A stretch of 64,000 nt of DNA, taken from NCBI RefSeq assembly GCF_964204865.1, contig NC_135261.1:1860001-1924000 (forward strand), given 5' to 3'. Below are positions 15,379 to 58,319 of the stretch, in pieces. The notes below the pieces were generated by a model. It had not been told where the DNA came from. It ran no database searches and saw nothing but the letters and a program-made list of their open reading frames with translations. The stretch comes from Styela clava. Lineage: Eukaryota > Chordata > Ascidiacea > Stolidobranchia > Styelidae. Every line of letters begins with the position of its first letter. The first letter of the stretch is position 1. Position numbers and translations under genes: made by a program.

Positions 15379-15489
15379 GGCGCTATTGAATGTGTCTACC
15401 AAGATGACGCACAACCTGAACCCTAACCTGATACACATACTGTGTTCAGGTTATGCGCCATCTTGATACATATATTTCGGGAGCACCGC
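15379..15489. mobile_element. Foldback MITE, short form, degraded
   Basis: The interior palindrome is clear ('accaagatgacgcacaacct' and 'caggttatgcgccatcttg'). The terminal arms have decayed, and no target duplication can be read. Confidence 0.6.
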
Positions 15490-18714: not shown

Positions 18715-19568
18715 TGGGGTCTTTTAGAACAGTATAATATATTTTATGTAATAACTCTACCGCAAAGTACGGTACTTTGACAACAACGAAATACAAAACC
18801 ACGTATTACTCAACATGTATTAACATCATTCAACCAAATTCCGTTTCCATTTGTCTCCAGCACAGAACTAATATCAACTTACATCGGAGTGCGCAGGCAA
18901 GAACTTAACGATACAGAACCACGTAATTAACCCGGTGCATTTTGTTACCTAACGTCACCAAATCAAATTTTGCTTTGTTTCCCGGTCAGATTTTTTGGCC
19001 ATGTAATTACGATGGAAATCTCACCGTGCGCGAGCTATGTGCGTGATGACGTCGGCAGTCGTAAGTGGTCTGACCAAGTGTGCACTTTGCCAGGTACTAA
19101 GACTAGATGTCTGCCGCCGGTGCGATCCTGCTTGTGACCGTTTTTTACTCTTGTTGTGAAATTTTTGCAAGCCCCATTTTGGCGCCCCTGTACCTTGGCG
19201 CCCGGGGGCATATGTACCCCACTGCTCCCCCTAAGCTACGCCTCTGTGCGCGTATTTCTATCCCTTCACGCTGCAAAGCCTATATCTGATTCCAATTTAT
19301 TATTTATGTCTATGACGTTACAATATCCTTTTTGTACCTGCAATTTCTAGTAAGCCTATGTTAAATAAGGTGCGCCCGCGGTTTTACTCAGTTATTTGTA
19401 TCTGGCCCTTCTGTATTAGAGGTTGCACATCCTTGTTTTAAATAGTTAAGAGACTGCTCGTCTATAGCCTTGTTGAGTGAAGTTATAAAATAACTTACAG
19501 TTATGGCATAAGTATATATTGAAGTTGAATGACAATCCGTAAAACTTTGGCCCTTGCAAGTGTTAGAG

Positions 19569-22604: not shown

Positions 22605-22657
22605 AATAATTAAAAGTAACATAATTATCATTGAACAATTGCACGTCCAAATCAAAT

Positions 22658-26049: not shown

Positions 26050-26436
26050 AACAAATTGACTCCCTTGTGATGAACCTAATACAGAAAGAAACAAACTTGT
26101 ATACTTTTATTAGCTCAAACGTCGACTAAGAGTCCTAAAGCAGCACAAACCAAAGAATGACTTTCAAATCAAAACGCCATGCTATTAAAGAACGAACAGT
26201 ATACGTCAGCAGGGTCAAATGTCGTGGCTGTTTTAGGCGTTGCTAGATTTTGAGACATAAATCACCACAACAAACTTTCCACCTCAGAGAAATGTCATAC
26301 TCCAAAGCCGACCTCAGCAAACGTCCAGTTAACTTGAATGAATTTGAAAGCACGCACGGTTTACTAAGGCGAGGTCAGATTTCAGGTTTTACCTTAAGCC
26401 TAGGCAAACGTGTCTAGAAAACTCATTTTACATTTC
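26050..26436. other. No gene seen
   Basis: The stretch between an R2 MITE and the transporter-like fragment. No homology to the upstream part of the transporter gene was recognised here, so the duplicate starts abruptly at about 26437. Confidence 0.3.
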
Positions 26437-26758
26437 TATTTATGACGTCAACTCATACGCAGCGGCTTTTTACTTGAGAGGTGGTATGTTTGTCGTGAGC
26501 GCAATCACAAATCTTCTACTTCCGATACCACAGCGGTATTTCCCACTCAAGGAACGCGAGGCCAAAGGAAAGCGTGATGTCGAAATTCCAAAAGAAGTTA
26601 AAAATCGAATCGTGAAACCCCGCTCCGACCCACGCCTTCCATTCAGTGTAGCTTTCTCGACAGGAAACACATTCAATGATTGTACAAAGTCTCTGGCGCG
26701 GAAGAATCGTGGATGGAGCACCACATACCTAGACAACTATTTCGACAACATGAGTTGA
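26437..26758 (+). pseudogene. Duplicated 3' fragment of the SLC16-like transporter
   Basis: Matches the transporter from about residue 449 to beyond 512 (IYDV...NSY...AAFYL...GGMFVVSAITNL...QRYFPLKEREAKGKRDVEIP). It has a 3-bp deletion that keeps the frame, and many third-position differences. After PRS the sequence diverges and ends in a new C-terminus (...NYFDNMS). The rest of the transporter (residues 1-448) is absent upstream. It could be a truncated pseudogene or the last exon of an unseen paralogue. The excess of silent differences suggests that it evolved under constraint before or after truncation. Confidence 0.8.
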
Positions 26759-34980: not shown

Positions 34981-35082
34981 ACTATCCTAAAAAGTCATTT
35001 TCTCCATTCCCGTAGTCAGTGAAAGGTAAATAACGCTGATATCGCGCTTCATAAGACTATTTTGTGAGTGACGGCGGCGCCT

Positions 35083-35099
35083 GTCTCTGTGGCGCAATT

Positions 35100-35139
<40 letters not shown>

Positions 35140-35156
35140 GAGCCCACCCAGGGACG
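35083..35156 (+). tRNA. tRNA-Asn (anticodon GTT)
   Basis: A 74-nt cloverleaf. The acceptor arm is GTCTCTG paired with CAGGGAC and the discriminator is G. The D arm lies in GGCGCAATTGGTTAGCGC, the anticodon stem-loop is TTCGGCTGTTAACCGAA with GTT, and the T arm is GGTGGTTCGAGCCCACC. Box A and box B are intact. CCA is not encoded and there is no intron. Downstream 'catttttc' is a Pol III T-tract terminator. It lies outside any SINE and looks functional. Confidence 0.97.
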
Positions 35157-35829
35157 GTGTCATTTTTCATCATCAATTTTCTCTGATATACCGGTATATA
35201 TTGCACTTACAACTTAATTTGGTATGGCAACGCTGAGCAGAATCTTTGGAACTAGTTTGACCTGATTTTGTTCAGTATTTTTCAAAAAAGTAAGAAGAAG
35301 CATATTCTCAAATTTCGCGTGACGTCATAACCACGTGACAAAGTCTCTCGACCAAAACTGCAGGTATATCTCGCTGGACTGTCGTCTGCCGTGAACTGTT
35401 TTGCGCGTTCGTTTCCTGCAGTTGTGTTTGAAAGTATATCTATTTTGTAGCGTTAGTTGGTATAGCCTATGTTTGCACGGCATTTGTTTGTTTCTGTAGC
35501 TTAATAGTACAAGGCTTTATGATAATATGTTACGATGAGACAGGGTGTTAGCACTGCAGTATTTTTGGTTTGCCTGGATCTGTAACAGTTTTTTTGTCGG
35601 TCATTTCCAAATTTTTAACAGCATATGGTACTGTACGTAACGCGTATATAGACTTTAAATAATCTCCTTTTTATTGTTGTGCATTAATCCATATAATGGC
35701 GTCGTCAGCTTCTGTATAGCCTATAGCATTCACCACCCGGATTTCAATACAAAAAATAAAAAACGCTAGCCTACTTTGAAAAACTTAAGATGTGTCACTT
35801 GGAAGAATGAACCTAGGCTATATGTCACC
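35157..35829. promoter_or_regulatory. Intergenic; CRE plus E-box pair at 35321-35338
   Basis: No gene seen. The sequence gtgacgtcataaccacgtga places a full CRE (TGACGTCA) next to a CACGTG E-box, followed by a GC-richer stretch to 35420. This could be a promoter for an unrecognised transcript on either strand. Function is inferred only from the motifs. Confidence 0.3.
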
Positions 35830-36660: not shown

Positions 36661-37146
36661 AATAGTTCTATTTTATGAGTTTTCGCTTTTTTATGCAAAC
36701 TGTACTGTATATTTATTCATTGTATCCGTTTTTATTTGAACTTGTTTTTGTGATGACAAATATACGATTGATTGATATGTCCGAAAACCTATAATAAGTA
36801 CCATATGTGGAACAAAAACACGGGATCCGAGAAAATTTTACATCATACTTTGAATTGGACACCCAATTTTAGTGTTTCCGCAATTTAGCGCTTACAGTCT
36901 AGTTTACAAGTTCGAAACAATCCACTTTATTCAAAATATAAAAGCTACATCTCATTTAAGTGTACTGATAGTCTATTTTAACATTGTGTATCACAGATTT
37001 GGGAGATTGATATTTTACAACTTTAACCTAACCAAAATCATTTGTTTGTAAATTAGACAGATGATAATCCTGTACGGACAGGCTACAAACCCGTAATTAA
37101 ATTATCTCTAAATGTCCCAAATCAATATGATTTGTAAAAATCAAAA

Positions 37147-37264
37147 GCCTACGGCACCCGGTATTCCCAGCCGGTCACCCATGCAAGTACTAACCGAGCC
37201 CGACGTTGCTTAACTTCCGAGATCGAACGAGATCGGGTGTATTCAACGTGGTATGGTCGTAGGC
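37147..37264 (-). rRNA. 5S ribosomal RNA, copy 1
   Basis: 118 nt, minus strand, starting GCCTACGACCATACCACG and ending ATACCGGGTGCCGTAGGC, so the terminal stem is complete. The internal promoter region around GAAGTTAAGCAACGTCGGGC and the conserved GATGGGTGACC-like part (here GCATGGGTGACC) are intact. TTTT follows immediately (37143-37146) as the Pol III terminator. The sequence is identical to copies 3-10. Confidence 0.97.
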
Positions 37265-37287
37265 GGTATCGAAGCTTCCTATTCGGC

Positions 37288-37295
37288 TTTTTATA
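37288..37295 (-). promoter_or_regulatory. TATA-like box of 5S gene (representative)
   Basis: TATAAAAA at -31 to -24 relative to the first base of 5S copy 1, followed by gccgaataggaagcttcg up to the gene. The box is at the same position in the other copies. Variants are TATAAATA for copy 5 and TATTAAAA for copy 7. Upstream TATA-like elements near -30 support 5S transcription in several eukaryotes (established). Its role here is inferred from position and conservation. Confidence 0.6.
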
Positions 37296-37919
37296 TTTAG
37301 GTTTTGTGTTAGAAACGAGAGATCGACGAAAGTTTAAAACGAGAGACCGATGGAGCGTAAAGAGTAGGATTCACAGTAATGGCAAGTCTGCCTTAATTTT
37401 TAACGTATTTTTCACAGAAGTAAGAAAAAGCACATCGGTAAATGTCTGAAATTAGACAAAAGCCTGCAAGTAGGCTTACCATATATGTGAAACAAAATAC
37501 TTAGACGGTTCGAATAGTAATATTCAACACATATGGATTATTAGGAAAGGTGCACTTTCTTTTCGACGTTTTAAATAATTTAACAGCAGTACAGATTATG
37601 TTTGATGCTAAATTGACGTATTAATACCTATGACATAACAAGATAGTGTTGTCTCCCACGGAACTGGTGAAGTGAGTCGCAAACCATTAATAAACTTCCC
37701 CATTTATTAAAAAAAATTGTATTGATATTTAATAAACAAAAATTATTTATTTCTGCATGACCGGAACATTTAAGCTCACTGGACGGAACGCCGAAATAGC
37801 CTCTATAAATCGCGGCTGTCGCGCCATCGGGATGTATGTATATAACCCATGCGTGCTGTTCGCAAGTTTTCATTCTTAGCTAAATCGTATCTAGTTTCCT
37901 AGTTTTATTGGTGCTCCCG

Positions 37920-38019
37920 AAGTATGTGTAACGAAATGGCGCACAGCCTGCACATAGAATGTGTGTCAGGTTATGGCTCAGGTTGTGCGTCATCTTGGTA
38001 CACATACTTCCGAAGCGCC
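37920..38019. mobile_element. Foldback MITE in 5S spacer 1 (type A)
   Basis: Ends ggtgctcccgaagtatgtgt and cacatacttccgaagcgcc, with paired 'atggcgcacagcctg' and 'caggttgtgcgtcatcttgg' arms. In the type-B spacer at 47640-47680 the flanks run together without it ('agtttcctagttttttgaat'), giving a natural empty site. Confidence 0.85.
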
Positions 38020-38524
38020 ATTTTTAGAATTATATATACGAGGAAAAATGAAAATCAAAGAGACAGAATTATTCTATAAACTCAGAATACCCGGGGTGAC
38101 GAGGTGTAGGATGTCTTTAAAGCCTGTGGCAACTCATCAATTTATTTTAAGAACATTGAAGCCATGACTCATAAGCCTTCTTTCGAATCGTAACTCTAGA
38201 AAGTTTCCTTCATACTGTGTCATTGAAAAATGGCTGATGTCCATTTTTAGTTTTTTCGCGATTTAGCGCTTACAAACTAGTTTACAAGTTCGAAACAATC
38301 CACTTCATTCAAAATATAAAAGCTACATCTCATTTAGGTGTACTGATAGTCTATTTTAACATTGTGTATCGCAAATTTGGGAGATTGATATTTTACAACT
38401 TTAACCTAACGAAAATCATTTGTTTGTAAATTAGGCAAATGATAATCCTGTACGGACAGGCTACAAACCCGTAATTAAATTATCTCTAAATGTCCCAAAT
38501 CAATATGATTTGTAAAAATCAAGA

Positions 38525-38642
38525 GCCTACGGCACCCGGTATTCCCAGCCGGTCACCCATGCAAGTACTAACCGAGCCCGACGTTACTTAACTCCCGAGA
38601 TCGAACGAGATCGGGTGTATTCAACGTGGTATGGTCGTAGGC
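38525..38642 (-). rRNA. 5S rRNA, variant copy 2
   Basis: Differs from all other copies at RNA positions 49 (A to G) and 57 (C to U). Position 57 falls in the A-box of the internal control region and 49 lies next to it. The T-tract directly after the gene is also broken (TCTTG in place of TTTTG). The next run of T lies about 7 nt further on. The terminal stem and C-box are intact. It may be a weakly expressed or dying copy, or a variant 5S class. Confidence 0.93.
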
Positions 38643-39286
38643 GGTATCGAAGCTTCCTATTCGGCTTTTTATATTTAGGTTTTGTGTTAGAAACGAGAGA
38701 TCGACGAAAGTTTAAAACGAGAGACCGATGGAGCGTAAAGAGTAGGATTTACAGTAATGGCAGGTCTGCCTTAATTTTTAACGTATTTTTCACAGAAGTA
38801 AGAAAAAGCACATCGGTAAATGTCTGAAATTAGACAAAAACCTGCAAGTAGGCTAACCATATATGTGAAACAAAATACTTAGACGGTTCGAATAGTAATA
38901 TTCAACACATATGGATTATTAGGAAAGGTGCACTTTCTTTTCGGCGTTTCAAATAATTTAACAGCAGTACAGATTATGTTTGATGCTAAAGTGACGTATT
39001 AATACCTATGACATAACAAAATAGTGTTGTCTCCCACGGAACTGGTGAAGTGAGTCGCAAACCATTAATAAACTTCCCCATTTATTGAAAAAATTGTATT
39101 GATATTTAATAAACGAAAATTATTTATTTCTGCATGACCGGAACATTTAAGCTCACTGGACGGAACGCCGAAATAGCCTCTATAAATCGCGGCTGTCGCG
39201 CCACCGGGATGTATGTATATAACCCATTCGTGCTGTTTGCAAGTTTTCATTCTTAGCTAAATCGTATCTAGTTTCCTAGTTTTATT

Positions 39287-39396
39287 GGTGCTCCCGAAGT
39301 ATGTGTAATAAAATGGCGCACAGCCTGCACATAGAATGTGTGTCAAGTTATGGTTCAAGTTGTGCGTCATCTTGGTACACATACTTCCGAAGCGCC
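39287..39396. mobile_element. Foldback MITE in 5S spacer 2 (type A)
   Basis: The same element and position as 37920-38019, with scattered substitutions. It carries the same flanks, so it spread by amplification of the unit and not by new insertion. Confidence 0.85.
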
Positions 39397-39914
39397 ATTT
39401 TTAGAATTATATATACGAGGAAAAATGAAAATCAAGAGTCAGAATTATTCTATGAACTCAGAATACCCGGGGTGACGAGGTGTAGTTTTCTTATTTGTAG
39501 ATGTCTTTAAAGCTTGTGGCAACTCAACAATTTATATTAAGAACATTGAAGCCATGACTCATGAGCATTCTTTCGAATCGTGACTCTAGAAAGTTTCCTT
39601 CATACTGTGTCATTGAAAAATTGCTGATGTCCATTTTTAACTTTTTCGCGATTTAGCGCTTACAAACTAGTTTACAAGTTCGAAACAATCCACTTTATTC
39701 AAAATATAAAAGCTACATCTCATTTAAGTGTACTGATAGTCTATTTTAACATTGTGTATCGCAGATTAGGGAGACTGATATTTTACAACTTTAACCTAAC
39801 CGAAATCATTTGTTTGTGAATTAGGCAAATGATAATCCTGTACGGACAGGCTACAAACCCGTAATTAAATTATTTTTAAATGTCCCAAATCAATATGATT
39901 TGTAAATATCAAAA

Positions 39915-40032
39915 GCCTACGGCACCCGGTATTCCCAGCCGGTCACCCATGCAAGTACTAACCGAGCCCGACGTTGCTTAACTTCCGAGATCGAACGAGA
40001 TCGGGTGTATTCAACGTGGTATGGTCGTAGGC
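39915..40032 (-). rRNA. 5S ribosomal RNA, copy 3
   Basis: 118 nt, identical to copy 1, with TTTT directly downstream. The spacer on its 5' side (spacer 3) is a recombinant of two type-A subtypes. Confidence 0.97.
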
Positions 40033-40678
40033 GGTATCGAAGCTTCCTATTCGGCTTTTTATATTTAGGTTTTGCATTAAAACGAGAGATCGACGAAAGT
40101 TTAAAACGAGAGACCGATGGAGCGTAAAGAGTAGGATTTACAGTAATGGCAAGTCTGCCTTAATTTTTTACGTATTTTTCACAGAAGTAAGAAAGAGCAC
40201 ATCGGTAAATGTCTGAAATTAGACAAAAACCTGCAAGTAGGCTTACCATATATGTGAAACAAAATACTTAGACGGTTCGAATAGTAATATTCAACACATA
40301 TGGATTATTAGGAAAGGTGCACTTTCTTTTCGGCATTTTAAATAATTTAACAGCAGTACAGATTATGTTTGATGCTAAATTGACGTATTAATACCTATGA
40401 CATAACAAGATAGTGTTGTCTCTCAAGGAACTGGTGAAGTGAGTCGCAAACCATTAATAAACTTCCTCATTTATAAAAAAAAAAATTGTACTGATATTTA
40501 ATAAACAAAAATTATTTATTTCTGCATGACCGGAACATTTAAGCTCACTGGACGGAACGCCGAAATAGCCTCTATAAATCGCGGCTGTCGCGCCACCGGG
40601 ATGTATGTATATAATCCATGCGTGCTGTTCGCAAGTTTTCATTCTTAGCTAAATCGTATCTAGTTTCCTAGTTTTATT

Positions 40679-40788
40679 GGTGCTCCCGAAGTATGTGTAA
40701 CAAAATGGCGCACAGCCTGCACATAGAATGTGTGTCAGGTTATGGTTCAGGTTGTGCGTCATCTTGGTACACATACTTCCTAAGCGCC
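40679..40788. mobile_element. Foldback MITE in 5S spacer 3 (type A)
   Basis: The same element as in spacers 1 and 2. The right arm shows 'cttcctaagcgcc' in place of 'cttccgaagcgcc', a change shared with spacer 4. Confidence 0.85.
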
Positions 40789-40847
40789 ATTTTTAGAATT
40801 ATATATACGAGGAAAAATGAAAATCAAAGAGTCGGAATTATTCTATG

Positions 40848-41023
40848 AACTCAGAATACCCGGGGTGACGAGGTGTAGTTTTCTTATTTGTAGATGTCTT
40901 TAAAGCTTGTGGCAACTCAACAATTTTTGTTAAGAACATTGAACTCAGAATACCCGGGGTGACGAGGTGTAGGATGTCTTTAAAGCCTGTGGCAACTCAA
41001 CAATTTATTTTAAGAACATTGAA
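40848..41023. repeat. Recombination-type duplication in 5S spacer 3
   Basis: The block 'actcagaatacccggggtga' to 'ttaagaacattgaa' occurs twice in a row. The first copy has the 'gtgtagttttcttatttgta' variant found in spacers 2, 4 and 8. The second has the 'gtgtaggatgtctttaaagc' variant found in spacers 1 and 7. The sequence that follows matches spacer 1 closely. This is the expected product of an unequal crossover between the two subtypes, and it explains why this unit is about 90 bp longer. Confidence 0.85.
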
Positions 41024-41387
41024 GCCATGACTCATAAGCCTTCTTTCGAATCGTAACTCTAGAAAGTTTCCTTCATACTGTGTCATTGAAAAATGGCTGA
41101 TGTCCATTTTTAGTTTTTTCGCGATTTAGCGCTTACAAACTAGTTTACAAGTTCGAAACAATCCACTTCATTCAAAATATAAAAGCTACATCTCATTTAG
41201 GTGTACTGATAGTCTATTTTAACATTGTGTATCGCAAATTTGGGAGATTGATATTTTACAACTTTAACCTAACGAAAATCATTTGTTTGTAAATTAGGCA
41301 AATGATAATCCTGTACGGACAGGCTACAAACCCGTAATTAAATTATCTCTAAATGTCCCAAATCAATATGATTTGTAAAAATCAAAA

Positions 41388-41505
41388 GCCTACGGCACCC
41401 GGTATTCCCAGCCGGTCACCCATGCAAGTACTAACCGAGCCCGACGTTGCTTAACTTCCGAGATCGAACGAGATCGGGTGTATTCAACGTGGTATGGTCG
41501 TAGGC
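41388..41505 (-). rRNA. 5S ribosomal RNA, copy 4
   Basis: 118 nt, identical to copy 1, with TTTT downstream. The spacer on its 5' side is interrupted by the 2.8-kb transposon at 41757-44552, 252 bp from the gene's 5' end, so the TATA-like box and proximal flank are untouched. Confidence 0.97.
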
Positions 41506-41756
41506 GGTATCGAAGCTTCCTATTCGGCTTTTTATATTTAGGTTTTGTGTTAGAAACGAGAGATCGACGAAAGTTTAAAACGAGAGACCGATGGAGCGTA
41601 AAGAGTAGGATTTACAGTAATGGCAGGTCTGCCTTAATTTTTAACGTATTTTTCACAGAAGTAAGAAAAAGCACATCGGTAAATGTCTGAAATTAGACAA
41701 AAACCTGCAAGTAGGCTTACCATATATGTGAAACAAAATACTTAGACGGTTCGAAT

Positions 41757-44552
41757 GGACCTTTCCCCGACATCAAAACATCCGTATTCTCAACCAATCA
41801 CAAGCGAGCAGATGTAAACAAACATTCTTCGCTGAAAAGTCGCTCAGACAACTTTAGACGCGTCCCGCACAGGTTGCTGGCGGTTTAGGCAGGTCTTTGT
41901 CCTTTTTTTCGCTTTTTGTTTTGTTCACAGGGCTGCGATAATTAGAAAGCTGTAATACTGTATGTTACTTGTTGCAAATCACGTTTACGAAATATGTATA
42001 TCCATACTAAAAGGATGTACGCGCTGCATGCACCTTACAGGTACGGTACCGTACAGGTCAACCAACTGCTATTTCGAACCAAAAAATAGTAGACAGTCAT
42101 GCTGATGCAATCAAGAGTACCGGTAGCCTACCGTATGTCAGTACGGAAGAATTCGCCTTCAATACGATGTTGCATTTGCATTATTAAACAGAATCTATTA
42201 GTGAATTATTTTGGTAGACTAACTATGTGTAAACGCTGCGCATATGGTATTTGCCAGTCTGACAACCTGTACGGTGACCCTGCCGTTCAAATGGAGTAGG
42301 ATTTGTGCCTTTTCCGAAGCCACATAGTGACCGCCAAAAAGCAATGAGGTGGATAAAGGAATGCAACAGGATTCACAGTCAATTCAACCTAGGAAAAATT
42401 ACCTATGGTATATATTCAATATGTTAATTCTTATATGAAATGAATTTTCATACAAGCAATGCGTTCCATCATGCATTTTCATGGAGGCGATTAACCAACT
42501 GATGAATACCTTGACCCTATATCAGATTCTTGTCGCCCAACAGAAGAGGACCATCAAATTGTGAGGTAAGGATTACTTATACCATAATTTTACTTTGGAT
42601 CATAATTTAACAGGATCTATCACCAGATACTTCATTTGATACAGAGACATGGGAATCTGATGAAAGTGAGAAAGGATTGTCAAGGATCTAACCAGATCTG
42701 CCCCCAGACTCTTTAGTTGAAACTACCTCGAGTGCCGCTGATGAAAATGACAGCGCTTTGTCAGACAGCTGAAAAATGTAAGCAAGCATCATCATCATTT
42801 TATTTTGGTTCTCTGGCATAAAACAACACAAAAAGCCAACATACAAACAAAATGCAGAGAAAACTGGAAGTCGAGCATAACTTAAAATAGATTTCAAAAA
42901 GTACGCGGCTACCCACCAGAAAAAGAAATAATAATAATAAAAGGGCACGAAAGAATTAACAAGATTCAGAATCGGGCAACACTTTTAACGTAATTCAAAA
43001 TGAGAAAACACATACTTCTTCCAGCATTGGTGTCATATTTGCTAACTGTAAATATGATGAATAAAGAAGGAAAATCAATATTGAAGACTTGGGACTTCAT
43101 GCAGAATCTTTTACAATCCATTGGTGATAAAATGATGTTACTTTATGGAGTATGCTCCGCATGTATGCCATGTCTGGTGTGACCCTGGTGATCGTAATAT
43201 AATTTTTTGTGCGGACTGCAAAGTCACACCAAGCTGCTCCTGATACCAGAAGTTGGCCCTGCACTTTGTAGTAACTGTGGTGTGTGATATATACTTATTT
43301 TGCATTTATCACTGTCATATAAATTGCAACTTGTTCATAATCATCCGATAACTTTAGAACCGAACCAAGTGGTGGGTGTTTGCCATCTGACTATATAACA
43401 ATGAGGTAACGTTAGTGCTCAGCGAGCGCAATTCTTCCATATTATCAGGAGATGAAACCAGACAGTTTTATTAAAATAACTCAGCAGTAAAATCATTGTG
43501 ATACATTATGTCTGTCAATGGAATTGTGAAATGAATTTAATTCTATTATTTTGACGTTCCATTGTTGTGCCTAAAAGCATATATGTATAATTTGTAGTAA
43601 TTTTCTTGGATTTACTTGCTTGTTCCTTCATCATATTTTTTTTATAATCTGTTATATTCTATTTCTACACTACACTGAATGAATAAACTATATTGTAAAA
43701 CCTATCTTTCAATAGTATATTTGCACCCATCAGGCTGAGCTAATAAATCTGTGTTTCTATGATAGGACATAAACTTAAGTGCCCTCACTGTGCCTAGGCC
43801 TAGCATGTACAAATTGCATCAGAGACTTGGTGACTACCCAGCGACACCACTATTTGAAGATGTGGTGGCAGAGACTCCTGAACTTATCTATAGCACTTGG
43901 CTTTGAACTCCAGCGTTGAACCAAGATTGACGATTGAACGAACCATCATGAATGTATCTGAAAAAAATATTCATCTGTTCATAATTACAGATTGCTGCAG
44001 TTTGTGCAATGTTTCTAGAAAATGTATTTAAAAGACTTTTTAAACTGCCCCTGCATTTCATTTGTTTCTATACTAAACCCACAAATTCAGTCCTAACTTG
44101 GGACGTTATCTATTAGTCTATGAACCATGGGATACGGTACCGGTTGTCACGCAGGTCTCTCAGTCTTCTGACATTCTTCAACCATATAAGTTTAAATATC
44201 ACCTTTCAATGAAAAGTTTTGTATCCTTCTCCAGCTGGTGGAAAGAAAAGTTCTTGGGGAATCAAGTCCATTGAAAAGGGATTCCATTTTTGTATGTTAA
44301 ATAGGCTTTTGGAACTAAGTCAGGTACGGTAACGGCAATGTGAAGGCGGAATAACGTTAATAATTGATCACTTGACAATATGTTATAACTTCAGGAGCAC
44401 GAAAATACCGCCATCATCAGTGAAATGCCATCCGAAGGCCTTCAAAACGAGCAACGTACCACTCTATCGCCCTACGCAAGCCTGAATATTTGCAATGTTT
44501 GTTTGAGCGACCAAAATCAAAACAATAAAGGTCAAAGGTCGGAGAAAGGTCC
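41757..44552 (+). mobile_element. THAP-bearing DNA transposon (ISL2EU-like) in the 5S array
   Basis: 2796 bp with 15-bp inverted ends ggacctttccccgac and gtcggagaaaggtcc (one mismatch). It is flanked by AT on both sides. Other spacers give the empty site ttcgaatagtaat, proving a 2-bp AT duplication. Two-bp AT TSDs are, to my knowledge, typical of the ISL2EU superfamily. It contains a broken THAP-domain gene (42226-43260) but no readable DDE core. The rest is A+T-rich with small frames only. A shorter relative with the same left end is at 63108-63584. Confidence 0.88.
42226..43260 (+). pseudogene. Broken THAP-domain gene inside the transposon
   Basis: From an ATG the frame reads MCKRCAYGICQSDNLYGDP, stops, then continues as FVPFPKPHSDRQKAMRWIKE ... 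HSQFNLGKIT. This is a THAP zinc finger with the CxxC-like start, the FP-P motif and the conserved W. The C-x2-H part is degraded. Next comes PTDEYLDPISDS, a short GT-AG intron (42566-42613), then an acidic stretch (TETWESDESE ... ETTSSAADENDS) in a shifted frame. THAP fingers bind transposon ends in several families. Stops and frameshifts show that it no longer encodes a full protein. Confidence 0.7.
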
Positions 44553-44948
44553 ATAGTAATATTCAACACATATGGATTATTAGGAAAGGTGCACTTTCTT
44601 TTCGGCATTTTAAATAATTTAACAGCAGTACAGATAATGTTTGATGCTAAATTGACGTATTAATACCTATGACATAACAAGATAGTGTTGTCTCCCACGG
44701 AACTGGTGAAGTGAGTCGCAAACCATTGATAAACTTCCCCATTTATTAAAAAAAATTGTATTGATATTTAATAAACAAAATTTATTTATTTCTGCATGAC
44801 CGGAACATTTAAGCTCACTGGACGGAACGCCGAAATAGCCTCTATAAATCGCGGCTGTCGCGCCACCGGGATGTATGTATATAACCCATGCGTGCTGTTC
44901 GCAAGTTTTCATTCTTAGCTAAATCGTATCTAGTTTCCTAGTTTTATT

Positions 44949-45058
44949 GGTGCTCCCGAAGTATGTGTAACAAAATGGCGCACAGCCTTCACATAGAATG
45001 TGTGTCAGGTTATGGTTCAGGTTGTGCGTCATCTTGGTACACAAACTTCCTAAGCGCT
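44949..45058. mobile_element. Foldback MITE in 5S spacer 4 (type A)
   Basis: The same element and site as in spacer 1. The right arm ends 'cttcctaagcgct'. Confidence 0.83.
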
Positions 45059-45567
45059 ATTTTTAGAATTATATATACGAGGAAAAATTAAAATCAAAGA
45101 GTCGGAATTATTCTATGAACTCAGAATACCCGGGGTGACGAGGTGTAGTTTTCTTATTTGTAGATGTCTTTAAAGCTTGTGGCAACTCAACAATTTATGT
45201 TAAGAACATTGAAGCCATGACTCATAAGCCTTTTTTTCGAATCGTGACTCTAGGAAGTTTCCTTCATACTGTGTCATTGAAAAATTGCTGATGTACATTT
45301 TTAGTTTTTTCGTGATTTAGCGCTTACAAACTAGTTTACAAGTTCGAAACAATCCACTTTATTCAAAATATAAAAGCTACATCTCATTTAAGTGTACTGA
45401 TAGTCTATTTTAACATTGTGTATCGCAAATTTGGGAGACTGATATTTTACAACTTTAACCTAACCAAAATCATTTGTTTGTAAATTAGGCAAATGATAAT
45501 CCTGTACGGACTGACTACAAACCCGTAATTAAATGTCCCAAATCAATATGCTTTGTAAATATCAAAA

Positions 45568-45685
45568 GCCTACGGCACCCGGTATTCCCAGCCGGTCACC
45601 CATGCAAGTACTAACCGAGCCCGACGTTGCTTAACTTCCGAGATCGAACGAGATCGGGTGTATTCAACGTGGTATGGTCGTAGGC
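45568..45685 (-). rRNA. 5S ribosomal RNA, copy 5
   Basis: 118 nt, identical to copy 1, with TTTT downstream and upstream box TATAAATA. The spacer on its 5' side (spacer 5) is an A/B mosaic: A-like near the gene, B-like beyond about 46150. Confidence 0.97.
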
Positions 45686-46421
45686 GGTATCGAAGCTTCC
45701 TATTCGGCTATTTATATTTAGGTTTTGCGTTAGAAACGAGAGATCGACGAAAGTTTAAAACGAGAGACCGATGGAGCGTAAAGGGTAGGATTTACAGTAA
45801 TGGCACGTCTGCCTTAATTTTTTACGTATTTTTCACAGAAATAAGAAAAAGCACATCGGTAAATGTCTGAAATTAGACGAAAGCCTGCAAGTAGGCTTAC
45901 CATATATGTGAAACAAAATACTTAGACGGTTCGAATAGTAATATTCAACACATATGGATTATTAGGAAAGGTGCATTTTCTATTCGGCGTTTTAAATAAT
46001 TTAGCAGCAGTACAGATTATGTTTGATGCTAAATTGACGTATTAATACCTATGACATAACAAGATAGTGTTGTCTCCCACGGAACTGGTGAAGTGAGTCG
46101 CAAACCAATAATAAACTTCCCCATTTATTAAAAAAAATTGTATTGATATTTAATAAACAAGAAAAACTTATTTCTGCATGACCGGAACATTTAAGCTCAC
46201 CGGACAGAACGCCGAAATAGCCTCTATAAATAGCGACTGTCGCGCCTTAACGGGGATGTATGTATATAACCCATGCGTGTTTTTCTTCTTAGCTGAATCG
46301 TATCTAAAATCAATGAATCAGAATTATTCTCTGAACTTAGAATACACGGATTGACTAGATTTAGTTTTGTTATTTGTAGATGTCTTTAAAGCTTGTGGCC
46401 ACCCAACAAGTTATGTTAGAA

Positions 46422-46710
46422 AAGAGGTGGGCACGGCTTGTAACCATAGTCAAGAATTGTGCCAACCTAGACTGGCGGGCTATGTGAGTGTGACGTAAAA
46501 TGTTACATTTTATGAACAGTACATACAGTGTTACGAAAGCAAAATTGGAAAACAATAAGCCTCGTGCCTAAACTAAATTTAAACACAATCTCAACAAATT
46601 TTTTTTTTTTTTACTTTGGTTTTAGTTTGGTTGTGGCAGCGTCAGGCGGGTCAGATTGAATTACCAAACAAGCCGGATTTGGCACGCAGGCCGTACTTTG
46701 CCCATGTTCG
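46422..46710. mobile_element. hAT-type MITE in 5S spacer 5 (type B)
   Basis: 289 bp with ends aagaggtgggcacggc and gccgtactttgcccatgttcg. The flanks tgttagaa and tgttagga are an 8-bp duplication. Type-A spacers carry the uninterrupted site ttatgttaagaacattga. It is the same family as 11121-11396. Confidence 0.88.
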
Positions 46711-47076
46711 TGTTAGGAGCTTTGAAGCCATAAGCCTTTTTCCGAATCTTGACCCTAGAAAGTTTTCCTTCATACTTTGTCTTTGTAAAATATTTGTTGA
46801 CCATTTTTGGGTGTGTCCGCGATTTAGCGCTTACAAACTGGTTTACAAGTTCGAAACAATTATATAGATTCAAAATAATAAAGCTACATGTCATTTAAGT
46901 GTTCTGGTTGTCGATTTTAACATTGTGCATCGCAGATTTATGGGACTGATATTTTACAACTTTAAACTGCACCAAAATCATTTCGTTTGTAATTTAAGAA
47001 AATTATAATCCCGTCCGGACACACTACAAACCCGTAATTAAATGTTCCAAATCAATATGCTTTGTAAAAATCAAAA

Positions 47077-47194
47077 GCCTACGGCACCCGGTATTCCCAG
47101 CCGGTCACCCATGCAAGTACTAACCGAGCCCGACGTTGCTTAACTTCCGAGATCGAACGAGATCGGGTGTATTCAACGTGGTATGGTCGTAGGC
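47077..47194 (-). rRNA. 5S ribosomal RNA, copy 6
   Basis: 118 nt, identical to copy 1, with TTTT downstream. The spacer on its 5' side (spacer 6) is type B and lacks the 'aagtctgccttaa' to 'ggtgcac' part (about 330 bp) found in other units, so the conserved flank is short. Confidence 0.97.
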
Positions 47195-47799
47195 GGTGTC
47201 GAAGCTTCCTATTCGGCTTTTTATATTTAGGTTTTGCGTTAGAAACGAGAGATCGACGAAAGTTTAAAACGAGAGACCGATGTAGCGTAAAGAGTAGGAT
47301 TTACAGTACGTACATTTTCTATTCGGCATTTTGAATAATTTAACAGCAGTACAGCTTAATGTTTGGTGCTAAACTGACGTATTATTACTTATGACATAAC
47401 AAGATAGAAGTCTCTCCCACGAAACTGGTGGAGTGAGTCGCAAACCATTAAAGGAATTTCTCATTAAATACAAAATTGTATTGATAATTAATAAACAAAA
47501 AATACTTATTTCTGCATGACCGGTACATTTAAGCTCACCGGACAGAACGCCGAAATAGCCTCTACAAATAGCAACTGTCGCGCTTTAACCGGGATGTATG
47601 TATATAACCCATGCGTGTTTTTCTTCTTAGCTGAATCGTATCTAGTTTCCTAGTTTTTTGAATGATATATACGAGGAAAAATGAAAATCAATGAATCAGA
47701 ATCATTCTCTGAACTTAGAATACCCGGGTTGACGAGATTTAGTTTTGTTATTTGTAGATGTCTTTAAAGCTTGTGGCTACCCAACAAATTATGTTAGAA

Positions 47800-48092
47800 A
47801 AGAGGTGGGCACGGCTTGGGATCGAAGTCAAAAATTGTGCCAACCTAGACTGGCGGGCAATGTGAGTGTGACGTAAAATGTTACATTTTATGAACAGTAC
47901 ATACAGTGTTACGGAAGCAAAATTGGAAAACAATAAGCCTCGTGCCTAAACTAAATTTAATCGCAATCTCAACAAATTTCTTGTTTTTTTTTTTACTTTG
48001 GTTTTAGTTCGGTTGTGGCAGCGTCAGGCGGGTCAGATTGAATTACCCAACGGGCCGGATTTGGCACGCAGGCCGTACTTTGCCCATGTTCG
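47800..48092. mobile_element. hAT-type MITE in 5S spacer 6 (type B)
   Basis: The same insertion site as in spacer 5, with flanks tgttagaa and tgttagga. Small differences from the spacer-5 copy show divergence after duplication of the unit. Confidence 0.88.
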
Positions 48093-48458
48093 TGTTAGGA
48101 GCATTGAAGCCATAAGCCTTTTTCCGAATCTTGACCCTAGAAAGTTTTCCTTCATACTTTGTCTTTGTAAAATATTTGTAGTCCATTTTTGGGTGTTTCC
48201 GCGATTTAGCTTCTAAAAACTGGTTTACAAGTTCGAAACAATTATATAGATTCAAAATATTAAAGCTACATGTCATTTGAGTGTACTGGTTATCGATTAT
48301 AACATTGTGCATCGCAGATTTGAGGGACTGATATTTTACAACTTTAAACTGCACCAAAATCATTTCGTTTGTAATTTAAGAAAATTATAATCCCGTCCGG
48401 ACAGACAACAAACCCGTAATTAAATTTCCCAAATCAATATGCTTTGTAAAAATCAAAA

Positions 48459-48576
48459 GCCTACGGCACCCGGTATTCCCAGCCGGTCACCCATGCAAGT
48501 ACTAACCGAGCCCGACGTTGCTTAACTTCCGAGATCGAACGAGATCGGGTGTATTCAACGTGGTATGGTCGTAGGC
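48459..48576 (-). rRNA. 5S ribosomal RNA, copy 7
   Basis: 118 nt, identical to copy 1, with TTTT downstream. The upstream box is changed to TATTAAAA. The spacer on its 5' side is type A. Confidence 0.97.
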
Positions 48577-49221
48577 GGTATCGAAGCTTCCTATTCGGCT
48601 TTTAATATTTAGGTTTTGCGTTAGAAACGAGAGATCGACGAAAGTTTAAAACGAGAGACCGATGTAGCGTAAAGAGTAGGATTTACAGTAATGGCAAGTC
48701 TGCCTTAATTTTTTACGTATTTTTCACAGAAGTAAGGAAAAGCACATCGGTAAATGTCTGAAATTAGACAAAAACCTGCAAGTAGGCTTACCATATATGT
48801 GAAACAAAATACTTAGACGGTTCGAATAGTAATATTCAACACATATGGATTATTAGGAAAGGTGCACTTTCTTTTCGGCATTTTAAATAATTTAACAGCA
48901 GTACAGATTATGTTTGATGCTAAATTGACGTATTAATACCTATGACATAACAAGATAGTGTTGTCTCTCACGGAACTGGTGAAGTGAGTCGCAAACCATT
49001 AATAAACTTCTCCATTTATTAAAAAAAATTGTATTGATATTTAATAAACAAAAATTATTTATTTCTTCATGACCGGAACATTTAAGCTCACTGGACGGAA
49101 CGCCGAAATAGCCTCTATAAATCGCGGCTGTCGCGCCATCGGGATGTATGTATATAACCCATACGTGCTGTTCGCAAGTTTTCATTCTTAGCTAAATCGT
49201 ATCTTGTTTCCTAGTTTTATT

Positions 49222-49331
49222 GGTGCTCCCGAAGTATGTGTAACAAAATGGCGCACAGCCTGCACATAGAATGTGTGTCAGGTTATGGCTCAGGTTGTGC
49301 GTCATCTTGGTACACATACTTCCGAAGCGCC
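49222..49331. mobile_element. Foldback MITE in 5S spacer 7 (type A)
   Basis: The same element and site as in spacer 1. This spacer as a whole is the closest match to spacer 1, including the 'gtgtaggatgtc' variant. Confidence 0.85.
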
Positions 49332-49836
49332 ATTTTTAGAATTATATATACGAGGAAAAATGAAAATCAAAGAGACAGAATTATTCTATAAACTCAGAAT
49401 ACCCGGGGTGACGAGGTGTAGGATGTCTTTAAAGCTTGTGGCAACTCAACTATTTATTTTGAGAACATTGAAGCCATGACTCATAAGCCTTCTTTCGAAT
49501 CGTAACTCTAGAAAGTTTCCTTCATACTGTGTCATTGAAAAATGGCTGATGTCCATTTTTAGTTTTTTCGCGATTTAGCGCTTACAAACTAGTTTACAAG
49601 TTCGAAACAATCCACTTCATTCAAAATATAAAAGCTACATCTCATTTAAGTGTACTGATAGTCGATTTTAACATTGTGTATCGCAGATTTGGAAACTGAT
49701 ATTTTATAACTTTAACCTAACCGAAATCATTTGTTTGTGAATTAGGCAAATGATAATCCTGTACGGACAGACTACAAACCCGTATTAAATAATTGTTAAT
49801 GTTCCGAATCAACAATGTGCTTCGTAAAAATTAAAA

Positions 49837-49954
49837 GCCTACGGCACCCGGTATTCCCAGCCGGTCACCCATGCAAGTACTAACCGAGCCCGACGTTGCT
49901 TAACTTCCGAGATCGAACGAGATCGGGTGTATTCAACGTGGTATGGTCGTAGGC
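49837..49954 (-). rRNA. 5S ribosomal RNA, copy 8
   Basis: 118 nt, identical to copy 1. The downstream flank reads TTTTAATTTTTACG, a distinct 3' flank shared only with copy 9, so copies 8 and 9 form a sublineage. Confidence 0.97.
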
Positions 49955-50599
49955 GGTATCGAAGCTTCCTATTCGGCTTTTTATATTTAGCTTTTGCGTT
50001 AGAAACGAGAGATCAACGAAAGTTTAAAACGAGAGACCGATGGAGCGTAAAGAGTAGGATTTACAGTAATGGCAGGTCTGCCTTAATTTTTAACGTATTT
50101 TTCACAGAAGTAAGAAAAAGCCCATCGGTAAATGTCTGAAATTAGACAAAAACCTGCAAGTAGGCTTACCATATATGTGAAACAAAATACTAAGACGGTT
50201 CGAATAGTAATATTCCACACATATGGATTATTGGGAAAGGTGCACTTTCTTTTCGGCGTTTTAAATAATTTAACAGCAGTACAGATTATGTTTGATGCTA
50301 AATTGACGTATTAATACCTATGACATAACAAGATAGTGTTGTCTCCCACGGAACTGGTGAAGTGAGTCGCAAACCATTAATAAACTTCTCCATTTATTAA
50401 AAAAAATTGTATTGATATTTAATAAACAAAAATTATTTATTTCGGCATGACCGGAACATTTAAGCTCACTGGACGGAACGCCGAAATAGCCTCTATAAAT
50501 CGCGGCTGTCGCGCCACCGGGATGTATGTATATAATCCATGCGTGCTGTTCGCAAGTTTTCATTCTTAGCTAAATCGTATCTAGTTTCCTAGTTTTATT

Positions 50600-50709
50600 G
50601 GTGCTCCCGAAGTATGCGTAACAAAATGGCGCACAGCCTGCACATAGAATGTGTGTCAGGTTATGGTTCAGGTTGTGCGTCATCTTGGTACACATACTTC
50701 CGAAGCGCC
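50600..50709. mobile_element. Foldback MITE in 5S spacer 8 (type A)
   Basis: The same element and site as in spacer 1. The left arm has 'gtatgcgtaac' where the others have 'gtatgtgtaac'. Confidence 0.85.
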
Positions 50710-51229
50710 ATTTTTAGAATTATATATACGAGGAAAAATGAAAATCAAAGAGTCAGAATTATTCTATGAACTCAGAATACCCGGGGTGACGAGGTGTAGT
50801 TTTCTTATTTGTAGATGTCTTTAAAGCTTGTGGAAACTCAACAATTTATGTTAAGAACATTGAAGCCATGACTCATGAGCATTCTTTCGAATCGTGACTC
50901 TAGAAAGTTTCCTTCATACTGTGTCATTGAAAAATTGCTGATGTACATTTTTAGTTTTTTCGTGATTTAGCGCTTACAAACTAGTTTACAAGTTCGAAAC
51001 AATCCACTTTATTCAAAATATAAAAGCTACATCTGATTTAAGTGTACTGATAGTCTATTTTAACATTGTGTATCGCAAATTTGGGAGACTGATATTTTAC
51101 AACTTTAACCTAACCGAAATCATTTGTTTGTGAATTAGGCAAATGATAATCCTGTACGGACAGGCTACAAACCCGTATTAAATAATTGTTAATGTTCCGA
51201 ATCAACAATGTGCTTCGCAAAAATTAAAA

Positions 51230-51347
51230 GCCTACGGCACCCGGTATTCCCAGCCGGTCACCCATGCAAGTACTAACCGAGCCCGACGTTGCTTAACTTC
51301 CGAGATCGAACGAGATCGGGTGTATTCAACGTGGTATGGTCGTAGGC
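51230..51347 (-). rRNA. 5S ribosomal RNA, copy 9
   Basis: 118 nt, identical to copy 1, with the same unusual 3' flank as copy 8. The spacer on its 5' side is type B and the longest in the array. Confidence 0.97.
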
Positions 51348-52101
51348 GGTATCGAAGCTTCCTATTCGGCTTTTTATATTTAGGTTTTGCGTTAGAAACG
51401 AGATATCGACGAAAGTTTAAAACGAGAGACCGATGTAGCGTAAAGAGTAGGATTTACAGTGATGGCAAGTTTGACTTTTTTTTTTCCGTATTTTTCAAAG
51501 AATAAGAAAAAGAACATCGGTAAATGTCTGAAATTAGACAAAAAACTGCAAGTAGGCTTAACATATATGTGAAACAAAATACTTAGACGGTTCGAATAGT
51601 AATATTCAACATATATGGACATTAGTTATATCCAAATCATTGGGAAAACGTACATTTCTATTCGGCATTTTGAATAATTTAACAGCAGTACAGCTTAATG
51701 TTTGATGCTAAACTGACGTATTAATACTTATGACATAACAAGATAGAAGTCTCTCCCACGAAACTGGTGGAGTGAGTCGCAAACCATTAAATAAATTTCT
51801 CATTAAATACAAAAATGTATTGATTATTAATAATAAACAAAAAATACTTATTTCTGCATGACCAGAACATTTAAGCTCACCGGACAGAACGCCGAAATAG
51901 CCTCTATAAATAGCGACTGTCGCGCCTTAACGGGGATGTATGTATATAACCCATGCGTGTTTTTCTTCTTAGCTGAATCGTATCTAAAATCAATGAATCA
52001 GAATTATTCTCTGAACTTAGAATACCCGGGTTGACGAGGTTTAGTTTTGTTATTTGTAGATGTCTTTAAAGCTTGTGGCTACCCAACAAATTATGTTACA
52101 A

Positions 52102-52393
52102 AAGAGGTGGGCATGGCTTGGGATCGTAGTCAAGAATTGTGCCAACCTAGACTGGCGGGCCATGTGAGTGTGACGTAAAATGTTACATTTTATGAACAGT
52201 ACATACAGTGTTACAAAAGCAAAATTGGAAAACAATAAGCCTCGTGCCTAAACTAAATTTAATCGCAATCTCAACAAATTTTTTTTTTTTTTTTCACTAT
52301 GGTTTTAGTTCGGTTGTGGCAGCGTCAGGCGGGTCAGATTGAATTACCCAACGGGCCGGATTCGGCACGCAAGCCGTACTTTGCTCATGTTTG
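52102..52393. mobile_element. hAT-type MITE in 5S spacer 9 (type B)
   Basis: The same insertion site as in spacers 5 and 6. Flanks tgttacaa and tgttagga. Confidence 0.86.
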
Positions 52394-52759
52394 TGTTAGG
52401 AGCATTGAAGCCATAAGCCTTTTTCCGAATCTTGACCCTAGAATGTTTTCCTTCATACTTTGTCTTTGTAAAATATTTGTTGTCCATTTTTGGGTGTTTC
52501 CGCGATTTAGCTTCTAAAAACTGGTTTACAAGTTCGAAACAATTATATAGATTCAAAATAATAAAGCTACATGTCATTTGAGTGTACTGGTTATCGATTA
52601 TAACATTGTGCATCGCAGATTTGGGGGACTGATATTTTACAACTTTAAACTGCACCAAAATCATTTCGTTTGTAATTTAAGAAAATTATAATCCCGTCCG
52701 GACAGACTACAAACCCGTAATTAAATGTCCCAAATCAATATGCTTTGTAAAAATCAAAA

Positions 52760-52877
52760 GCCTACGGCACCCGGTATTCCCAGCCGGTCACCCATGCAAG
52801 TACTAACCGAGCCCGACGTTGCTTAACTTCCGAGATCGAACGAGATCGGGTGTATTCAACGTGGTATGGTCGTAGGC
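52760..52877 (-). rRNA. 5S ribosomal RNA, copy 10 (last in array)
   Basis: 118 nt, identical to copy 1, with TTTT downstream. The TATA-like box and about 100 bp of 5' flank are kept. After 'agagaccgatggagcgtaat' the homology ends and single-copy sequence begins, so this is the edge of the array. Confidence 0.97.
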
Positions 52878-53064
52878 GGTATCGAGGCTTCCTATTCGGC
52901 TTTTTATATTTAGGTTTTGCGTTCGAAACGAGAGATCGACGAAAGTTTAAAACGAGAGACCGATGGAGCGTAATGCGTAAGATATACCTCATTTCGTGGA
53001 ATCATTCCAGCCAAATTTATTGGATATATCCGCCACCTGTACATGGCTGAAAACATGAAAAAAT

Positions 53065-53270
53065 GGTACTCCCGTAGTATGCGTACCAGGTTAGGGTTGG
53101 GCCATAATTTTATTCCGATTTTTCCTATTTTGGTTCTATTTCGCGTTCGGGGACTGTCTGTGTTAGCTAAATCAATATTCCCCCTGCCTATATGTTTCAG
53201 TCCCTTTACAGAACTCGATGTAAAGTAGGCGAACAAAATTAATTACCACCATATTGGTATACATACTTAG
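53065..53270 (-). mobile_element. MITE family R2 next to the array edge
   Basis: Starts ggtactcccgtagtatgcgt and ends near tggtatacatacttag, with the full R2 interior. It lies about 90 bp beyond the end of the 5S array. Confidence 0.75.
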
Positions 53271-54538
53271 ATATCATACAATATTCTTCATGCTACCATG
53301 CGCACACAAAATTCCACTATATTGTAAAACAATAATTAAAATTTTACTAATTTCCTATTTCCGCTATAACACCTCCTGCATGGATGATTTTTTCACTTTA
53401 TTTCATTTCATCTCAATTTTTCCTTGCGCCTTTCGCTGATCTCTAATATTTATTTATTTCGCTTGACTCACATTTTCCACCTTAATTTTTTTTCTTGGGT
53501 CACGCTGATTTCAATTTTCACTCTATCATGTTTATCATATTGTGACACTGTTTGTGGATTGCTGCATTTCGCTTGGTAACTTTTTTTCGGTGTTACTTAG
53601 CTGCTTTTTTCATTTATTTCCTTACTGACTGCTTGCGGCTATTTACTACTTTACACTTCCACACCCACCGAGCTTTTTCTCACTTAATCTCTTCCTTGGG
53701 CCTCGCTGATTTCCATTTCCTTCTCAGCATTTCTACTTGCTTGCAAGATTGCTGTTTTCCATTTTAGTTTATCCAAGTTTCTCCTTCATTTGATTATATC
53801 CTTTTTGAATGCGCTGGTTGGCACTGGTATTTGCATTTTCCGACCTCTCGCTGATCCCACTGCCTTTACTCCGTCCCGCTTGATCGCTGATATTGAACTG
53901 AATGGACCCTCCAATCTATTTTCGCTCACTCCATCTTCATTTCCTTTGACTAAACCGCTGCTGGCATTGCTGGCTTTTTGTCGGCTTGTAGCTGGTCTAG
54001 CTTGATCTTTGATTTCCATCTTCACTCTACTTGACCGCAGCTCCCGCTTGCTTCTCGACTCCTTTTCCTTCCCGCCTGTCTTGTCTGCTAGTCCTTCCCT
54101 ACAATCTACCCGGTGTGGTTCGGCCCCGCCCCCATACCTTGCCTGATGTTTGAACACGTCTCTACGTTTCCCCTGAGTTACCGCTACCAACGAGGATCAA
54201 GTGGATTAAAATTTTACCTAATTGTTGATGTCACAATAGACAGCTCACGACGGGGTTCCCCCGAAAAAATTAAATTAAACATACTACGCTCGAAGCAGGT
54301 GTAGTGATGCATCAATAGAAGGCGTTCATTTTAGCCCATCGTGTTCGCTGCTTTCACTATTGAATATGTGAATATCTTGTTTTTAATTTGTGATCCATTT
54401 TTGCTTACTTTTTAAAAAGAAAAATGCGGTATTATGCAATCTTAGCGACAAGACTCATAAAATAAAGTAGTGGATATGCAAACCAAATTTCTGTGGGGAA
54501 ATACCGAGAAATAATACACTAGTTGAGTAAAAAGTAAG
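53271..54538. other. Pyrimidine-rich block with one minus-strand frame
   Basis: 53370-54180 is strongly C+T-rich on the plus strand, with a recurring 'cgctgat' word. A minus frame of 134 codons (53786-54190) is rich in K, R, E, S and G and contains SARGRKMQIPVPTSAFKKDI. No family is recognised. The base asymmetry alone can create such a long frame. No splice-bounded gene could be defended. Confidence 0.35.
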
Positions 54539-54611
54539 CGCCCGATAAGGGACTTGAACCCTTGACCGTTGGATTAAAAGTCCAACGCTCTACCGACTGA
54601 GCTAACCGGGC
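54539..54611 (-). tRNA. tRNA-Lys (anticodon TTT)
   Basis: 73 nt, minus strand. The acceptor is GCCCGGT paired with ATCGGGC (one G-T) and the discriminator is G. The D arm is GCTCAGTCGGTAGAGC, the anticodon stem-loop is TTGGACTTTTAATCCAA with TTT, and the T arm is AAGGGTTCAAGTCCCTT. Both internal promoters are intact. CTTACTTTTTA downstream gives the Pol III terminator. No intron, and no encoded CCA. Confidence 0.97.
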
Positions 54612-57902: not shown

Positions 57903-58319
57903 CAGGGGTGGGCGATTATTTTTAGAGTTGGCCAGACACAGATAATAGGCTTGGATACTGGGGCGGAAGCATAAAGCTTAATATGAAAAACTATGAATAA
58001 AAAACAGTTTATTTACAAATGCTAGTTCAAAAGCTTTAAGTTTCAGTGGTTCTCAAATTTTTCAGCTGTCAAATCTCGGGCCATGTAAGTGTGACGTAAA
58101 AAGTTACTTTTCATGAATGATATTTACAGTGTTACAGAAAGCAAAATGAAAAACAATAAGCCTCGTGCCAACATTGAATTTAATCGCAATTTTAACAAAT
58201 TTCTTGAGTTAATTTTACCTAAAACATCAAAATTTGGTTAATTATAGTTTGGTTGTGGCAGCATCAGGCAGGCCAGATTGAATTACTCAACAGGCCTTAG
58301 TTTGCCTATGTCAGTTCTG
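57903..58319. mobile_element. hAT-type MITE, 11121 family, rearranged
   Basis: The left end is caggggtgggcgattatttt. The right part has 'gcagcatcaggcaggccaga' and 'aggccttagtttgcc' as in 11121-11396. A second MITE left end (cagtggttctcaaat at 58044) lies within it, so at least two elements are interleaved. Confidence 0.5.

Follow-up and report, generated by a model that had tools for sequence, protein, structure and literature searches.

The window analysed here is a 64,000-nucleotide stretch of the ascidian Styela clava (C16:1860001-1924000, in an assembly of 376.6 Mb and 379 contigs), and its subject is an array of 5S ribosomal RNA (rRNA) genes in which two lineages of spacer are interspersed. 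Searching the window with the 5S model of Rfam (RF00001) identified ten genes, which span 37146-52877, are all on the minus strand and all score far above the gathering cut-off (102–108 bits against 38). They share one strand and stand head to tail, separated by nine alignable, homologous spacers, and thus form a tandem array. Gene 1 (37146..37264; 108 bits, 119 nt) provides the reference sequence, which is repeated without change by genes 3 (39914..40032), 4 (41387..41505), 5 (45567..45685), 6 (47076..47194), 7 (48458..48576), 8 (49836..49954), 9 (51229..51347) and 10 (52759..52877). The sole exception is gene 2 (38524..38642; 102.1 bits), with substitutions at RNA positions 49 (A>G) and 57 (C>T) and a further changed base, the terminator base 38523, in the T-run behind the gene. 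We take positions 49 and 57 to lie in or adjoin the internal promoter box A. An earlier note on this DNA had counted nine identical genes; nine are indeed identical over their 119 nt, but the array holds ten. A 48-nt stretch of the 5S gene had no match among viral contigs.

Eight of the spacers (S1 to S9, numbered along the forward strand) are 1,259–1,411 bp long and S4 is 4,061 bp. Six of them (S1, S2, S3, S4, S7 and S8; lineage A) differ from one another by 1.8–4.2%. In lineage B, S6 and S9 differ by 3.5%, and A spacers stand 12.2–14.4% from this pair. S5 is a mosaic: its diagnostic sites are A-like, with one B-like exception, as far as alignment column 483 and mostly B-like from column 501, which puts the switch at approximately 46145..46170 as read off the sequence; it is 6.4–7.0% from S6 and S9 and 9.4–10.7% from A. 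The clean division proposed previously therefore keeps its two lineages but loses S5 as a simple member of either.

Each lineage carries its own miniature inverted-repeat transposable element (MITE). A 114-bp foldback MITE occupies one homologous site in six of the nine spacers, S1 (37908..38021, with TTTTA on both sides), S2 (39285..39398), S3 (40677..40790), S4 (44947..45060), S7 (49220..49333) and S8 (50598..50711). A hAT-like MITE of 289–293 bp occupies another in the remaining three: the B part of S5 (46423..46711, 289 bp), S6 (47801..48093, 293 bp) and S9 (52103..52394, 292 bp). No spacer carries both (0/9; blastn, E≤1e-10, plus strand). This distribution is the one that the earlier note had described, and the nine-spacer alignment puts each element at a single position. 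The foldback site can be seen empty in S6 (47641..47680), as also described before; in S5 and S9 a common deletion spans it, leaving neither element nor empty site. The hAT-like site is empty in the six A spacers and in an isolated 5S copy on contig C17. The observation that each lineage supplies the empty site for the other's insertion is thus confirmed, B doing so through S6 and A through all six of its spacers. Because both the A spacers and the C17 outgroup are empty at the hAT-like site, that insertion is derived in B; the foldback MITE is probably derived in A, judging from the empty site in S6.

The ends of the foldback MITE pair over ~42 bp and TTTTA stands on either side, as befits a MITE. 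Relatives occur elsewhere in the window, for example at 15379-15487 (82.7% over 110 bp), and the hAT-like MITE likewise has relatives at 11152-11396 and 58077-58296 and a piece at 14133-14200, so both belong to mobile families and are not array-specific sequence. The octamers flanking the hAT-like MITE are GTTAGAAA and GTTAGGAG in S5 and S6 (6/8 bases alike) and GTTACAAA and GTTAGGAG in S9 (5/8 alike). Local alignment of its two ends gave no terminal match that would indicate terminal inverted repeats; its ends resemble hAT termini.

Along the array, the spacer cores read AAAABBAAB. This order is not clustered (runs test p=0.35), and the interspersion of A and B units noted previously is what a random order gives. 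We also considered a higher-order repeat A1-A2-B, in which the spacers would run roughly A1, A2, A2/A1, A2, A/B, B, A1, A2, B; the distances do not favour it (S1-S3 1.8%, S1-S7 3.3%, S2-S4 2.9%, S2-S8 3.5%). On the left, the array begins with F0 (36863..37145), the final ~283 bp of an A-type spacer, beyond which the sequence is unrelated. On the right, it ends in the upstream flank of gene 10 (52878..53065), whose homology to isolated copies on C17 and C3 continues past ~105 bp, where internal spacers depart. The extent of 36850..52975 given before thus falls short on this side, where 5S-related sequence continues to ~53065. A repeat of ~200 bp (53060-53270) starts at this edge; it has more than ten related stretches across the window (blastn), some of which share terminal sequence with the foldback MITE.

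Despite their divergence in the core, A and B units near the genes show exchange in short tracts, a mode of homogenisation that the earlier note had allowed for. In the pairwise homoplasy index (PHI) test on 133 informative sites, the value was 0.048; shuffling gave a mean of 0.106, and none of 1000 shuffles went as low. This and all other p-values are descriptive, since the copies are related. Between the six A spacers and S6/S9 there are no fixed differences in the left flank (0/112) or the right flank (0/59), that is 0/171 near genes, against 17/192 and 66/540 (83/732) in the core, a count that omits alignment columns 113–299 (deleted in S6). Within A, the left flank has a diversity of 0.032 in one half and 0.016 in the other, the right flank has 0.124 and the core blocks have 0.021–0.044; as diversity is not lowered in the flanks, low mutation alone does not explain the absence of fixed differences. 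With divergence from the C3 copy as the yardstick, A and B are 0.16 apart in the left flank and 0.63 and 0.78 apart in two core blocks (left flank against core, Fisher p 0.004–0.035 over 12 non-independent A-B pairs), a fourth block (0.35) being left out of this comparison because C3 is not alignable there.

Individual markers in the flanks cross the boundary between the lineages. In the right flank, S4, which has an A core, shares an 11-bp gap with S5, S6 and S9; this gap is absent from S1, S2, S3, S7, S8, F0 and the isolated copies on C17, C3 and C1. Right-flank types for genes 1–10, assigned by eye, read aaaabbbccb and are clustered by array position (p=0.015). Sites polymorphic within A are also polymorphic in B at 6/45 positions outside the core and at 0/36 inside it (p=0.031). 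Among themselves, A units have at least four recombination intervals within the core. The most recent exchange event that we could see is an 815-bp tract (40942..41756) that is a copy of, or source for, 38079-38893. The two copies, which take in gene 4 and gene 2, differ at five positions, of which three fall within gene 2 or next to it (38523-38594), and the left end of the tract created an 80-bp internal partial duplication in S3. S6, for its part, lacks ~200 bp adjoining the gene flank.

Several observations weigh against this account of exchange. The C3-scaled divergence of the right flank is 0.47, not far below the core, and the core boundary used for shared polymorphisms was chosen after the switch in S5 was known. 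The left flank contains an AT-rich element that also stands beside the genes of a larger array on C14, hence some constraint acts there. At nine B-core sites S5 has A-like states, which may be due to conversion or else to changes that S6 and S9 alone have undergone. In trees by window, of the kind proposed earlier as a check, the core windows group S6 and S9 strongly, with S5 joining them after the switch, but the flank windows do not reject a {S6,S9} clade (approximately unbiased test, 0.71 and 0.55; the two windows hold just 2 and 10 informative sites), and a {S5,S6,S9} clade is rejected on the left only (0.033).

The order of the units, or the presence of A and B together, could in principle be an artefact of collapsed haplotypes: tandem arrays are hard to assemble, and the assembly alone was examined here. 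However, all spacers can be told apart (1.8–14.4%), the array lies inside a contig that reaches at least 1.9 Mb, and neither the mosaic S5 nor flank types that follow position are expected from simple haplotype switching. We therefore regard an artefact as very unlikely.

The right edge of the array preserves a record of its origin. Homology upstream of gene 10 extends for ~184 bp to C17 (82.8%) and ~172 bp to C3 (72%), whereas S1 (A) and S9 (B) match C17 for just 102 bp and depart at the same point. The remaining spacers align with S1 and S9 at this junction, S6 up to its deletion. Departure at the same point indicates that there was probably one founding tandem duplication, with the A/B split coming later, and because of the junction common to S1 and S9 we reject A and B as independently founded arrays. 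A tree of the right core comes close to a trichotomy of A, B and the isolated copies (branches 0.069, 0.057 and 0.055), and the A-B split is therefore old. An old split, and a mosaic such as S5, would also suit a history in which A and B came from two loci or from hybridising populations and were united in one array later; if the two were populations to which the array had passed after its founding, even the common junction would fit. The single duplication implied by that junction argues against two sources, and we consider such a union improbable, if less so than an assembly artefact.

Two further settings of the 5S gene in the same genome bear on why the genes of the window are alike. In a first look at the genome, 340 5S candidates were named and 40 scored. 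The larger array was covered over 200 kb (C14:1610001-1810000), and 5S genes reach both ends of this stretch. It holds 132 5S matches, 129 of them full-span and all on one strand. The window spacers S6, S7 and S9 have no match in the C14 stretch at E≤1e-5, although the short AT-rich element upstream of the gene looks alike in both. The C14 spacers are homogeneous, with a mean difference of 1.2% (116/128 compared; the rest are of unusual length), and its genes differ by a mean of 1.16% among the 76 copies of 119 nt. In the right block of this array, variable sites are as frequent in the gene (11/119) as in the spacer (121/1203; p=0.87). The sequence of the window gene is found in 41 of the 129 genes. 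Another 52 of the 129 measure 109 nt because 10 bp are missing around a direct repeat, GATCTCG; these shortened genes make up 52/74 left of 1.73 Mb, mixed with 119-nt genes, and 0/55 to the right. Some C14 genes score 81–90 bits against RF00001, not 108. Long insert-bearing spacers in this array occur in pairs, one of 4,713 bp (1648354-1653066 and 1696101-1700813; 99.7% identity, ~48 kb apart) and one of 4,097 bp (1669926-1674022 and 1726123-1730219; 99.85% identity, ~56 kb apart); it looks as though units with inserts had been duplicated inside this array.

The second setting is that of isolated copies, a status judged from short stretches. The C17 copy is identical to the window gene at 119/119 positions while its flanks differ by 10–25%; the C3 copy is identical at 118/119, and the C1 copy has ~3 mismatches in 103 nt. 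The flanks of all three are related to the window spacers but diverged. In C3:12681001-12683500 the isolated gene is accompanied by a 5S remnant of 21 bp, at which the gene's flank occurs a second time, and 196 bp of the upstream flank are tandemly duplicated.

On three comparisons within one genome, the near-identity of the window genes looks to be mainly a product of purifying selection and not of extra homogenisation. The earlier note had concluded that homogenisation reaches the genes more strongly than the spacers, and in its strictest form this would mean that the genes owe their identity to gene conversion and nothing else. In its favour, there is real exchange around the genes, and nine of the ten are identical. 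But variable sites number 2/119 in the gene and 11/113 and 16/59 in the adjoining flanks (Fisher p=0.009, gene against the first of these), and since the flanks vary right beside a nearly invariant gene, the homogenising tract would have to end at the gene edges. The C17 copy is identical outside any array, so gene identity is possible without array neighbours. The C14 array is strongly homogenised, yet its genes are as variable as its spacers, and homogenisation therefore does not make genes specially uniform. Variable flanks, the identity of the C17 copy and the parity of gene and spacer in C14 thus leave the idea of stronger homogenisation of genes, as it was put, unsupported. Import of the gene from C14 is also unlikely as the cause: the changes at 49 and 57 do not figure among the positions at which the 76 119-nt genes of C14 vary, and a random draw from C14 would yield nine unchanged copies with a probability of 3e-5 (all 129) or 0.004 (119-nt copies only). 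Taken together, conversion as the sole cause seems unlikely to us, albeit the least unlikely of the three alternatives to our account. A conversion restricted to the genes within the C16 array is a possible alternative, and counts against a reading based mainly on selection. Under purifying selection, the excess of unchanged genes in the window (9/10 against 41/129 in C14, p=0.0004, the copies not being independent) suggests that selection is stronger on the small C16 locus than on single copies of the large C14 array.

The most probable course of events is as follows. The small array, separate from C14, was founded by tandem duplication of a 5S gene of the C17/C3/C1 stock, with a founding junction ~105 bp upstream of the gene (seen in one A and one B spacer, with which the alignment of the others agrees). 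Its units split early into two spacer lineages, B gaining the hAT-like MITE and A the foldback MITE. Afterwards there was scarcely any exchange between A and B in the spacer cores and continued exchange within A, while short tracts comprising the gene and ~100 bp on each side went on passing from A to B units or the reverse and from neighbour to neighbour, as several tests support. The MITEs and 10–20% divergence probably serve as heterologies and so help to keep the core from exchanging, and the gene with ~100 bp per side would be alike enough to exchange, with selection on the gene as an aid. The A-B switches are too few to tell cause from consequence in this barrier. We consider this account as a whole (one founding duplication, an early A/B split with reciprocal MITEs, tract exchange near the genes, and genes kept mainly by purifying selection) to be reasonably probable. 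A bolder and more doubtful extension, which we put forward tentatively, is that the large C14 array drifts almost neutrally, in the manner of a satellite, while a shortened form of the 5S gene spreads through it, that selection sees the small array and the isolated copies one by one, and that the reciprocal MITEs have split the units into a gene segment exchanged between A and B and a core that is not, giving two domains of concerted evolution in one array.

5S arrays of this kind are already known, and the window provides an unusually legible case with comparisons inside one genome. In the parts of the sources available, intermingled spacer types are described, together with short 5S pseudogenes, for the 5S locus of Pistia stratiotes (PMC8928438), and intermixed 5S units for Mugilidae fishes (mullets) and Vitis vinifera (grapevine), as cited in PMC3123226. 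These share with the window different spacer types side by side and conserved genes. The window differs from what these texts present in that its lineages are each marked by a MITE, with reciprocal empty sites, and in that exchange tracts are readable in a continuous assembled array; the word "transposon" is absent from the available portion of the Pistia text (PMC8928438). Available sections on the 5S ribosomal DNA (rDNA) of Pollicipes describe birth-and-death evolution with purifying selection (PMC3215682), and low gene variation, strongly diverged spacers and purifying selection as the explanation are common to both cases. The Pollicipes data are cloned types from three species (PMC3215682), whereas the window belongs to one genome in which a larger array and isolated copies serve as internal comparisons. 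A review of intragenomic rDNA variation covers, in the sections seen, incomplete homogenisation, pseudogenised 5S and, with reference to Smith 1974, the way in which homogenisation depends on the size of an array; it is general, and the arrangement of the window is not described in those sections (PMC10462631). We found no report of reciprocal MITE insertions in one 5S array in the open-access literature, as judged by titles and abstract openings. Whether the likeness of rRNA genes stems from copying or from selection is a long-standing question, and a single genome that has this gene in three settings (a large homogenised array, a small two-lineage array with legible exchange tracts, and isolated copies) helps to separate both forces. 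Identical genes next to diverged spacers need not signal stronger homogenisation of the genes.

The length of S4 is accounted for by a transposon-like insertion of 2,796 bp found in this spacer only (41757..44552), with terminal inverted repeats matching at 14/15 positions and AT on both sides. Its empty site is present in S1, S2, S3, S5, S7, S8 and S9 and deleted in S6. The AT is duplicated, yet the site reads A/AT/A and the preferred one A/AT/T, so that the last base differs. Nine open fragments of the insertion gave no transposase, THAP or YqaJ match (Pfam, E≤1), and with no meaningful Pfam match in these fragments we rejected it as a coding transposon. AT target duplication and short terminal inverted repeats are features that it has in common with ISL2EU transposons as characterized in the available part of PMC4482050, from which it differs in that the nine fragments scanned lack a Pfam transposase or YqaJ match; from its sequence, it may at most be called ISL2EU-like.

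Outside the array, a tRNA-Asn gene (35082-35157, plus strand) and a tRNA-Lys gene (54538-54611, minus strand) lie ~1.5–1.8 kb beyond its two ends. What is left of a hAT transposase is a frame at 18331-18723, which encodes a hAT C-terminal dimerisation domain (PF05699, E=1.5e-11). At 22625-24397 a 590-codon open frame encodes an MFS transporter (PF07690), and a shorter frame nearby, at 26348-26758, repeats, by eye, part of its C-terminal sequence and is perhaps a duplicated piece.

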